A model generated the notes under the pieces. It searched no databases and had not been told where the DNA came from. It saw nothing but the letters and a program-made list of their open reading frames with translations. From an uncultured Lachnospiraceae bacterium (GTDB taxonomy: Bacteria; Bacillota; Clostridia; Lachnospirales; Lachnospiraceae): DNA of 36,059 bases. The stretch covers positions 1 through 36,059 of the forward strand of contig CAMOIV010000005.1 of NCBI GenBank assembly GCA_946616305.1, read 5' to 3'. The first letter of the stretch is position 1. The number at the start of each line of letters is the position of its first letter. Of this stretch, positions 2,593 through 27,455 are shown piece by piece. Position numbers and translations under genes: made by a program.

Positions 2593-4422
2593 TTGAGAAA
2601 TTCCAACAGAGGTTTAGGTATATATTTCCTGATCGTGGCAGCGGTGCTGCTTTTGATCTCCTTCATGTCCTCAGGTCTGAAGGTAAGGGATCCGTATAAT
2701 TACAGGACCTTTTTAGATGACCTGGAAGCAAAAAGGGTGAAGGGCGTATTGGTGTCTCCCTACGCGGAAACTCCAACGGGCGAGGTGACCGTAACGTTGA
2801 GCAACAGCGAGACGCATACCATATATGTTGCCGATATCACGGAAACGGAAAAGGAATTAAAGGAGCTTTTTCCCGGATTCGAGGAGGAAGCCGTCAAAAG
2901 AGAGAATCCCATCATAGTATACGGATTGCCCATACTGCTCACAGTGGTGGCTGTGATGGTGATCATGGCCATGATGAACTCCCAGAATGCGGGAGGTGCC
3001 GGAGGCGGCCGGATGATGAATTTCGGCAAGAGCAGAGCAAAGATGGTAGCTCCGGGGCAGACAAGCATCACCTTTAAGGATGTGGCCGGACTGGCGGAGG
3101 AGAAGGAGGATCTGGAGGAAATAGTGGATTTCCTTAAGGATCCCGGAAAGTATACCGAAGTGGGAGCGAGGATCCCCAAGGGTGTTATACTGGTAGGCTC
3201 CCCCGGAACAGGTAAAACACTTCTCGCAAAGGCGGTTGCCGGAGAAGCAGGGGTTCCCTTCTTTTCCATATCCGGTTCCGATTTCGTGGAGATGTTCGTA
3301 GGTGTAGGTGCGTCAAGAGTCAGAGACCTTTTTGAAGAGGCAAAGAAAAACTCACCCTGTATAGTGTTCATAGATGAGATAGATGCTGTGGCAAGGCGCA
3401 GAGGTACAGGCCTTGGCGGCGGACATGATGAGAGAGAGCAGACTCTTAATCAGCTGCTGGTAGAGATGGACGGATTCGGAGTAAATGAAGGCATAATCGT
3501 CATGGCTGCAACGAACAGGGTAGATATCCTGGACCCCGCCATCATGAGACCCGGAAGATTTGACAGAAAGATCGGGGTGGGAACACCGGATGTAAAGGGA
3601 AGAGAGGATATCCTGAAGGTTCATGCCAAGAACAAGCCGCTGGGAGATGATGTGGATCTGACCCAGATAGCCCAGACAACGGCGGGCTTTACGGGAGCGG
3701 ACCTGGAAAACCTGCTGAACGAAGCCGCGATAAAGGCGGCCAAAGGTGACAAATCCTATATCACCCAGGAGGATATAAAGTCCGCATTTATCAAGGTCGG
3801 CATAGGAAATGAGAAGAGAAGCAAGGTCATATCGGATGAGGAAAAGAAGATAACGGCATACCACGAGGCGGGACATGCGATCCTGTTTCATGTACTTCCC
3901 GGAGTCGGGCCTGTATACAGCATCTCCATCATACCCACGGGAATGGGAGCAGCAGGATATACCATGCCTCTTCCCGAAAAGGATGAGATGTTCAGGACCA
4001 AATCAAAAATGCTCAACGAGATCGTTGTTGATCTGGGAGGCAGGGTGGCTGAGGAGCTTATCTTCGGACCCGACGATGTGACTACCGGAGCATCCGCTGA
4101 TTTCAAACAGGCTACAAAAATGGCCAGAAGAATGGTGACCACCTATGGCATGAGTGACAAGATCGGAGTCGTGAGCTTCAATGAGGATGATGACCAGGTA
4201 TTCATCGGTCGGGATCTGGCTCACGGAAGGAGCATGTCGGAGGAAACCTTACGAGAGATAGATATCGAAGTGAAGACCATCGTGGAGGATTGTCACGAAA
4301 GAGCCAGAGCACTTATAAAGGAGCATATGGACATACTTGAAAAGACCGCTAAACTGCTCCTTGAAAAGGAAAAGATCAGCATGGATGAGTTCAATTCCCT
4401 GTGGGAGGCAGAGCCCGTCTGA
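2593..4422 (+). CDS. ftsH: ATP-dependent zinc metalloprotease FtsH
   Basis: AAA+ Walker [22 protein letters not shown] region, HEAGH zinc motif, two N-terminal TMs. Probable TTG start preceded by GGGGGT. Confidence 0.97.
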
Positions 4423-4479
4423 CAAACATGCACAAAAAACGATCATAAAGTTTGTAAAGATTGTATATTTTGTGCATTG

Positions 4480-4507
4480 TTGACATATCCTTGCAGTGCT
4501 ATATTAT
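4480..4507 (+). promoter_or_regulatory. Sigma-A-type promoter of the candidate small RNA
   Basis: TTGACA (4480-4485), 16-nt spacer, TATTAT (4502-4507). Confidence 0.65.
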
Positions 4508-4513
4508 AGGCGT

Positions 4514-4612
4514 ACCCCCCAATACATGATACCGTCCGTTCAGGGCGGTACCCCATAAGAAAGAAATACCTTCTCCTGAAATGGCTGATCGCGATCGGCC
4601 ATTTCTACTTTT
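4514..4612 (+). ncRNA. Candidate C-rich small RNA (or terminated leader) upstream of the tad locus
   Basis: Starts just after a strong promoter; hairpin TACCGTCC-gttca-GGGCGGTA (4530-4550), C-rich single-stranded stretches, terminal hairpin plus CTTTT. No ORF with a ribosome-binding site. Confidence 0.5.
4578..4612 (+). terminator. Intrinsic terminator of the candidate small RNA
   Basis: GAAATGGCTGATC-GC-GATCGGCCATTTC long palindrome followed by TACTTTT. Confidence 0.6.
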
Positions 4613-4622
4613 AAAAAAGTTC

Positions 4623-4651
4623 TTGACAAGAAATCCCCCAGGGTGTATTTT
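4623..4651 (+). promoter_or_regulatory. Candidate sigma-A promoter of the tad operon
   Basis: TTGACA (4623-4628), 17-nt spacer, TATTTT (4646-4651), ~70 nt before the first tad gene. Confidence 0.6.
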
Positions 4652-4719
4652 TTATTTCACTTTCAGATTATCTTTTCACGTTTCAGTGACAGATCCAATC
4701 ATTAAAAGGACAGGTAGCA

Positions 4720-5112
4720 ATGAAGGAATATCTATATCTTTTCATGCTGTTTGCCTGCGCCATGACGGACATTGTAACATATCGGATAAAGAACGTATTT
4801 CTGGCCCTTCCTTTAGGCATACTTCTCATTTGTGACCCGTCTTCGCAAAATCTTCGCGACATGCTATTGATATTTATCCTCTTTATCCCCTTTTACTGTC
4901 TGGGTATGGTCAAGGCCGGCGATATAAAACTCTTAATGGCCGCAACGGCCTTCATCGGAACAGCCTCTCTCATAGAGACAGCCGTTTATACGGTACTTAT
5001 CTCCGTCATCTCGATCATGGCATTGAGTATCAGAAATCAAACCCCCGTTCTACAGACGAAAATACCTTTCGCATTCTCATTTTTCATGGGATCATTTCCG
5101 TTTTTTATCTGA
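4720..5112 (+). CDS. Type IV prepilin peptidase (A24 family, TadV-like), copy 1
   Basis: 130 aa, multi-TM, MTDIVTYRIKN and KAGDIKLLMA catalytic Asp motifs. Confidence 0.75.
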   Translation: MKEYLYLFMLFACAMTDIVTYRIKNVFLALPLGILLICDPSSQNLRDMLLIFILFIPFYCLGMVKAGDIKLLMAATAFIGTASLIETAVYTVLISVISIMALSIRNQTPVLQTKIPFAFSFFMGSFPFFI

Positions 5113-25524: not shown

Positions 25525-25553
25525 TTGACCGGGAATGCAATGTATTATAGAAT
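25525..25553 (+). promoter_or_regulatory. Promoter of SRP RNA
   Basis: TTGACC (25525-25530), 17-nt spacer, TAGAAT (25548-25553). Confidence 0.75.
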
Positions 25554-25558
25554 GTACA

Positions 25559-25716
25559 GGTCGGCTGGACGGGTTGAAGGTGATGACTCTCCGGTCCCGT
25601 GCAATGGAAGCCCTCGAACCGTGTCAGGTCGGGAACGAAGCAGCACTAAGGGGTGTCTTTCATGTGACGCGGGGAACCCGGGGACGAGCCTTTGATCCGC
25701 CCGGTCGATCTTTTTT
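25559..25716 (+). ncRNA. ffs: Signal recognition particle RNA (4.5S-like)
   Basis: Core GTGTCAGGTCGGGAACGAAGCAGCAC matches the SRP helix-8 CAGGUC-GGAA-GAAGCAG pattern; AGGTCGGCTGGACGGG at the 5' end pairs (with G-U pairs) with CCGCCCGGTCGATCT at the 3' end, followed by T6. Confidence 0.88.
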
Positions 25717-25865
25717 CCGATACGAGTCCGCAGGTTACCTTTTCCAACAAAAAAGAGAATAAAATCAACTTATAATCCGACGGATAACTGATATAATAGA
25801 AAAGGTTATCGACTTTTACATTATCAAAGATCGAGTCATACATACAGCACAGGAGGTAGAATCTT

Positions 25866-27455
25866 ATGGGAGCAAAAGAACTCATCGAAGCAGGAAAGAC
25901 CACACTCGGTATAGAATTCGGATCAACCAATATCAAAGCGGTCCTCATAGGGGAAGACTATGAACCACTGGCATCCGGAAAGCATTCCTGGGAAAACCGT
26001 CTGGAGAACGGGATCTGGACATACACCCTGGATGATATCTGGGACGGGTTACATGACTGCTATCAGAATCTGAGAAAAGATGTAGAGGATAAATACGGAG
26101 TTAATCTCACCACCACCGGAGCCATAGGCTTTTCGGCTATGATGCACGGATATATGGTATTCGATGAGAAGGACGAACTGATGGTTCCCTTCCGCACATG
26201 GAGAAATACCATTACAGGACAGGCAGCAGACGAGCTCACGTCCCTCCTTGATTTCAATATACCTCAGCGCTGGTCCATAGCGCATCTTTATCAGTCCATA
26301 CTCAATAAAGAGGAGCATGTGGCAAGGATACGTACTCTTATGACCCTTTCGGAGTATATACATTGGCAGCTTTCGGGAGAGAAAGTGGCAGGCATAGGAG
26401 AAGCATCCGGTATGTTCCCCATCGATTCCTCCATAAACGATTATGATCAGGGCCGCCTGGACAAGTTTGACGAGAAGATCGCATCCTACGGCTTCCCCTG
26501 GAAGATAAGGGATATCCTCCCCAAGGTCATGGTAGCCGGAGAGAATGCCGGAGTCCTGACCGAAGAAGGAGCAAAGAAGCTTGATATAACAGGCAATCTT
26601 AAGGCAGGTATACCCATGTGCCCTCCCGAGGGAGATGCCGGCACGGGCATGACGGCAACAAATGCAGTAAAGGAGCGTACCGGAAATATATCTGCAGGAA
26701 CAAGCTGCTTTGCCATGATAGTACTGGAGAAGCCCCTGTCCAAGGTATATACGGAGCTTGACATGGTAACCACCCCCACAGGTAAGCCCGTAGCAATGGC
26801 TCATGTGAATAACTGCACATCAGACCTGAATTACTGGGTAAATATCTTCAAAGAGGTTATTGCCCTGGGAGGTTTTGAATTCCCGGGTAATATCTATGAG
26901 GCCTTATTTGACAAGGCTTTGACAGAGGATCCGGATTGCGGCGGAGTCCTTTCATATAATTACTTCTCCGGCGAGCCAATTACGGGCATGGAGGAGGGGC
27001 GTCCCCTCCTGGTACGTACCCCCAATGCCAAATTCGATCTGGCCAATCTTATGAGATCCATCCTTTATTCCGCCATGGGCAGCCTGAAGATAGGTATGGA
27101 TATACTTATCCGTAAGGAAAATGTGGAAGTGGACAAGATCACGGGACACGGCGGATGGTTCAATTCCGGAGTCAGTGCTTCAAAGGTCATGGCAGCGGCA
27201 CTTGATACACCTGTGTCCACCATGTCTACGGCAGGCGAGGGAGGACCCTGGGGTCAGGCCGTTCTTGCAGCTTACATGATAGGTAAGCAGGACGGAGAGA
27301 GTCTGGATGAATTCCTTGAAAAGAAGGTATTTGCCAAAGCCGAGACGAAGACAGTGGAGCCTCTGGCAAGCGATGTGGAAGGCTTTGACAAGTGGCTTAA
27401 CATGTACAAGGCAGGTCTGCCCATCGAAAGAGCAGCCATTGACTCCATAAAGTAA
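25866..27455 (+). CDS. FGGY-family carbohydrate kinase
   Basis: [108 protein letters not shown]. Confidence 0.85.

Follow-up and report, generated by a model that had tools for sequence, protein, structure and literature searches.

The closest described counterparts of the RNA reported here are found in Bacilli. The csRNAs of Streptococcus are CiaR-dependent small RNAs of about 100 nt which are terminated and occur in several copies per genome (PMC3091779). They typically comprise two stem-loops and an unpaired linker complementary to the Shine-Dalgarno (SD) sequence and AUG, some of them containing only the terminator stem-loop, and in their promoters a repeat site further upstream stands in for a good -35 box (PMC3091779). 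RsaE, RoxS and other C-rich sRNAs of Bacilli use C-rich single-stranded stretches that are able to pair with SD sequences. RoxS of Bacillus, itself C-rich, is sponged in turn (PMC8216469).

The Lachnospirales sRNA described below shares with the csRNAs a length of ~100 nt with a terminator, an unpaired anti-SD/anti-AUG linker, the occasional presence of several copies and an upstream site replacing the -35 box. Its linker between hairpin and terminator (ACCCCAUAAG...ACCUUCUCC) is complementary to SD and AUG as in csRNAs, which is an analogy only, and a member in which the first hairpin is deleted (L032) resembles the csRNAs that have only a terminator stem-loop. Unlike the csRNAs, it has another sequence, occurs in another order, keeps exact modules order-wide, shows synteny with ftsH and a GH13 glycosidase gene, and is usually present in one copy. 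Moreover, no CiaR repeat (TTTAAG-N5-TTTAAG, located 10 nt before the -10 box in csRNAs) was detected near positions 4480-4507 with up to two mismatches. Judged by this analogy, the RNA is csRNA-like in plan, but neither a csRNA nor a homologue of one. C-rich single-stranded stretches with the potential to pair with SD sequences are likewise shared with RsaE and RoxS. However, none of the 4227 families of Rfam release 15, RsaE/RoxS included, matched above its gathering threshold, and scans of two stretches at permissive E-values gave, at best, chance-like matches below threshold. The RNA thus has the general form of known Rfam sRNAs (promoter, hairpin, terminator) but matches none of their families, and no published description of it was found.

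A predicted small RNA gene downstream of ftsH

The gene lies on the forward strand of the window (the whole stretch of DNA analyzed, 36,059 nucleotides from an uncultured Lachnospiraceae bacterium). Its upstream neighbour, in conserved synteny and on the same strand, is ftsH (2593-4422; TIGR01241, 806 bits). Downstream, outside the sRNA unit, a profile match to PF01478 identified a type IV prepilin peptidase (4720-5112, forward strand) as the first gene of a tad locus. The features described for this region in an earlier note were all recovered base for base when the sequence was checked. The promoter TTGACA-N16-TATTAT spans positions 4480-4507 (TTGACA 4480-4485, TATTAT 4502-4507), and its -10 box, together with an upstream TG, is kept in relatives. 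Because sigma-70-like sites were not above chance in the stretch (4 found versus 2.9 expected), conservation was taken as the test, and it decided the question. The RNA is predicted to start at A4514 and to stop within the U-rich tail that follows the terminator (4514-4612). The gene is backed by its fold, its match to covariance model R1 and covariation.

None of 200 dinucleotide shuffles folds as well as the RNA from this start (-32.2 kcal/mol versus -18.3 for the shuffles, z = -4.2), which comprises two stems and three C-rich modules on the same strand. Module M1 (CCCCCCAATAC, 4515-4525), which holds CCCCCC (4515-4520), is nearly invariant and has a predicted unpaired probability of 0.99. 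Hairpin 1 (TACCGTCC/GGGCGGTA with a GTTCA loop, 4530-4550) shows double-sided changes in six of its eight pairs in alignment A1. It is followed by M2 (ACCCCATAAG, 4550-4559), which contains CCCC (4551-4554) and the anti-start-codon CAU. Next comes the anti-SD module M3 (AAATACCTTCTCC, 4564-4576), which includes CCTTCTCC (4569-4576) and in which ATACCTTCTCC is invariant in the 25-row alignment; the unpaired probability predicted for M3 (AUACCUUCUCC) is ~55-92%. The intrinsic terminator (4578-4614) consists of a 12-bp stem (4578-4605) and a U-rich tail, and its sequence varies with compensating changes.

The region had been described as holding no translatable ORF. Taken literally this is incorrect, since a 10-codon ATG...TAA frame exists at 4526-4558, but by comparison with relatives the frame is not a gene. 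There is next to no likelihood that the region is a gene for a small peptide (ATGATACCG...TAA, 11 codons with the stop included): the frame, although present in the window, lacks a ribosome-binding site, carries interruptions or frameshifts in close relatives (e.g., ATGATATAG in L015-L018), and has lost its ATG in most other genera, where ATT is found. This candidate was rejected. Separately, an 84-amino-acid ORF without family match overlaps the sRNA terminator (4581-4835, forward strand) and is probably spurious.

Conservation, covariation and distribution

A whole-genome DNA search retrieved homologues from most of 36 genomes of the same genus, with ftsH as the upstream gene wherever that gene was visible. 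In their alignment, the promoter is conserved, the start reads GTACCCCC(C)AATACATGAT, the hairpin stem carries compensating changes, ACCCCATAAGAAAGAAATACCTTCTCC comes next, and the terminator drifts in sequence while its stem is kept. The single-stranded CCCCCCAAUAC, ACCCCAUAAG and AAAUACCUUCUCC are nearly invariant whereas both stems vary, a pattern that points to base pairing as the function of the unpaired stretches. In one subgroup (L025, L030-L032) hairpin 1 is deleted altogether, leaving the 5' C-rich end, TACCTTCTCC and the terminator, which argues that the unpaired modules matter more than the hairpin.

The earlier note had proposed a covariance search over homologous regions downstream of ftsH, and its outcome was positive: hairpin and terminator pairs covary, and the C-tracts are conserved. 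Among 25 sequences, double-sided changes were observed in 15 of the 19 base pairs, with a covariation score of 0.639 versus 0.298 for shuffled alignments and at most 0.176 for slid structures. For 86 further members from named genomes, which were picked with model R1 and aligned to it, the score was 0.414 versus 0.146 (shuffled) and at most 0.135 (slid). Hairpin 1 takes a somewhat different form in these members, 65% of its cells pairing in the register of the window.

Model R1, which was built partly from the window sequence, matched the window at 4512-4615 with 105.5 bits. Across the order it had matches in 156 of 295 genomes (131 of the 212 good ones), and in the family of the window 44 of 48 genomes matched. 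In the rest of the class, only three weak matches appeared in ~370 genomes, about the number expected by chance for E <= 0.01 per genome. A pattern scan of named genomes retrieved loci from Butyrivibrio, Pseudobutyrivibrio, Roseburia hominis, Coprococcus catus, Blautia, Fusicatenibacter, Enterocloster, Lachnoclostridium, Hominisplanchenecus and numerous uncultured Lachnospiraceae, and a small number of unrelated loci that matched by chance; R1 found 86 matches in the first 100 of these loci. Although usually single, the sRNA is present in two or three copies in some genomes, partly in tandem. Tandem copies were seen in L078 (4001-4781), L117, L136 and L152, and in L078 and L152 they have promoter-like and terminator sequences of their own. 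In more distant families (L076, L079, L082 and L085) the RNA seems to be longer at its 5' end, with an extra C-rich stretch in an apparent hairpin loop (GTGAAAAACCCC...TTTTCAC), so the family could grow with an improved model. We file the RNA as a new sRNA family common to the order Lachnospirales and of a known general kind, analogous to the csRNAs.

Gene neighbourhood and promoter element

Of 124 loci compared, 85 have ftsH on the same strand no more than 700 nt upstream, and ~70 have a same-strand gene for a GH13 glycosidase downstream, usually also within 700 nt. The best NCBIfam match of the latter is maltodextrin glucosidase, under the cut-off of that model. The typical order is therefore ftsH, sRNA and GH13 gene, with a downstream gene that varies in the genus of the window. 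In other families the upstream gene is that for penicillin-binding protein 2, the downstream gene is ftsH-like, or the neighbours are unrelated.

These data bear on the suggestion that the element is a terminated leader. As an attenuator, it would control the gene that follows it, i.e., tad in the window and GH13 in most relatives. The frequent GH13 linkage and the strong terminator between the sRNA start and the downstream gene would fit such a role, but we consider it improbable. In 41 loci whose downstream sequence exceeds 700 nt, no GH13 gene follows, and elsewhere the next gene is ftsH-like or unrelated. In addition, we saw no sign of an alternative antiterminator pairing, conservation falls on unpaired C-rich sequence rather than on an aptamer, and the starts of the neighbouring ftsH and GH13 genes are not preferred pairing targets (p = 0.55 for GH13). 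The tad version, which had been raised in the earlier note, fares no better: instead of a constant linkage to tad genes, the A24 peptidase is found downstream only in the window and five relatives (L004, L005, L007, L009 and L011), and the locus has a separate promoter. This second promoter (TTGACA-N17-TATTTT, 4623-4651, forward strand), also predicted in the earlier note, is present and has equivalents in four relatives (L004, L007, L009 and L011) of the form TTGACA-N17/18-TAGAGT or TAAAGT (TTCTTGACA-N17/18-TAGAGT-like). Both leader readings were rejected on genomic context. The varied neighbours, and tad in so few relatives, indicate a free-standing gene. With its own conserved promoter and intrinsic terminator, as in trans-acting anti-SD sRNAs, its order-wide conservation, its covariation and many different downstream genes, the earlier proposal of an autonomous sRNA is strongly supported, and the element, predicted at about 4514-4612, is a small RNA gene of its own, neither a chance hairpin nor a tad leader.

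Conservation extends upstream of the predicted transcript. In the window, a distal element (TGCACAAAAAA, 4429-4439), conserved in relatives ~30 nt upstream of the -35 region, is followed on the same strand by a proximal one (TTTGTAAAG...TTTTGTGCATTGTTGACA, 4451-4485) that overlaps the -35 box, is the equivalent of the order-wide TTTTGTGAAGTTTGTGCACACTT and is a probable regulator site. The consensus derived from 80 members with enough upstream sequence reads TGCACAAAAA - ~10 nt - AAATTTTGTGAAGTTTGTGCACACTTA - N16 - TGnTATAAT, and TTTGTGCACACTT was matched at 12 or 13 of its 13 positions in 66 of these members (shuffles reached 10 at best). Most genera have a poor TTGACA at -35 and TTTTGTGAAGTTTGTGCACACTT there instead; the variant in the genus of the window has a better TTGACA. 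A genome holds about one copy of the 13-mer TTTRTGCACACTT, which sits at the sRNA promoter (seven of nine matches in 15 genomes). From this pattern we infer that the element is the site of a dedicated activator or regulator. Its reading as a DnaA box was dropped as inconsistent between genera.

Complementarity to initiation regions and mode of action

The reverse complement of the 3' linker is GGAGAAGGUAUUUCUUUCUUAUGGGGU (GGAGAAGG...AUGGGG), i.e., an SD sequence followed by an AUG-GGG start. Targets were sought in 400-436 kb samples of two genomes, that of the window and a near-complete congener, using genes called with an SD requirement. Complementarity to AAAUACCUUCUCC peaked at translation-initiation regions (mean 13.4 versus 10.2-10.9 elsewhere in the two genomes), ~2.3 standard deviations above composition shuffles (11.4, sd 0.87). 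As part of this enrichment is built in by the SD requirement, it shows that the module is anti-SD-like and not that any gene is a target. The bias was smaller for ACCCCAUAAG, and none was detected for the 5' C-tract in the two samples. In keeping with this, duplex energies of the core were -12.6/-11.2 at starts, -11.1/-9.4 inside genes and -10.2/-9.0 for shuffled cores. The conserved unpaired sequence is thus complementary to ribosome-binding sites, as in anti-SD sRNAs, within a gene set pre-selected for SD-like sites.

No single target with long exact complementarity was conserved across genera in 200 genomes, where the exact long anti-initiation-region pattern was listed at 15 places, roughly half of which were the sRNA itself, versus three control matches. 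Candidate targets in the genus of the window are the genes for an FGGY carbohydrate kinase (start at 25866 in the window) and phosphoglucomutase, both with AUG-GGN after GGAGGU. Kinase orthologues still pair fairly well in close relatives (-15 to -23 kcal/mol) and lose this further out, and those of phosphoglucomutase likewise pair in close relatives only; for both, most of the pairing falls on GGAGGU and AUGGG, motifs under constraint in any case, so the two genes are no more than candidates. Just upstream of the kinase gene lies a bacterial large SRP RNA (RF01854, 102 bits; 25530-25719, forward strand). Matches to GGAGAAGGTATTT in the same genome were discarded as targets because they were dominated by a repeated element near contig ends. 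This element, which carries GGAGAAGGTGTTTTCTGCGCAGTACTTTTTCGAGGCGTGATG (L213, L214, L216-L220, L223 and L224, many near contig ends), is probably the end of an insertion sequence or similar repeat; the sRNA seed could pair with its start in full, with one G-U pair, whether by chance or not.

Hfq, on whose presence in the host an Hfq-dependent sRNA would rely, was not found (PF17209) in any of 37 genomes of the window genus, in which the sRNA is kept; it is therefore unlikely to be needed there, and the sRNA probably works without it. Among the other families sampled in the order, 13 of 24 had an Hfq match.

Our preferred reading, to which we give odds of roughly two in three, is that 4514-4612 represents an autonomous, Hfq-independent, trans-acting sRNA family of Lachnospirales that masks the SD sequence and start codon. 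Its transcription would begin at a regulated promoter and stop at an intrinsic terminator, both belonging to the gene itself, and the unpaired 5' end (ACCCCCCAAUAC) and the unpaired hairpin-terminator linker (ACCCCAUAAGAAAGAAAUACCUUCUCC) would serve as seeds. As the reverse complement of an initiation region (GGAG-AAGG ... AUG-GGG), the linker would base-pair with a set of mRNAs across their ribosome-binding sites and start codons and so block translation. The trans-acting SD-masking role proposed in the earlier note draws indirect support from the invariant unpaired anti-SD/anti-AUG stretches and from the concentration of complementarity on initiation regions, and its targets remain candidates. 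A bolder version appears unlikely to us: a single-copy core-genome regulator of the order, with a generic anti-SD plus anti-AUG-GG seed and a dedicated activator with about one site per genome, that would act as an Hfq-free global translation brake on many genes instead of a small set of specific targets.

A broadly acting base-pairing sRNA would not usually be invariant across an order, and a protein-binding site could be the alternative. The C-rich modules would then hold or sponge an RNA-binding protein, with no pairing to mRNA, which would account for three modules that are near-invariant over the order beyond what pairing with diverse targets needs, and for the lack of a conserved target in our searches. 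We judge this quite unlikely, as M3, and to a lesser extent M2, are biased to initiation-region complementarity and Hfq was not found in the genus. To our knowledge, no C-rich-binding protein of this kind is a partner of bacterial sRNAs. Pairing with another, purine-rich sRNA as a sponge has very little probability; the sponging of RoxS in Bacillus makes such pairing in reverse conceivable (PMC8216469), but a search that was not systematic found no partner RNA.

Among gut bacteria, Lachnospirales are dominant and largely beneficial, and we found no regulatory sRNA described for them. The masking sRNA proposed here, which occurs in roughly nine in ten of the sampled genomes of the main family, with near-invariant seeds, a dedicated promoter site and a genus without Hfq match, offers an entry point to RNA-based regulation in these organisms.
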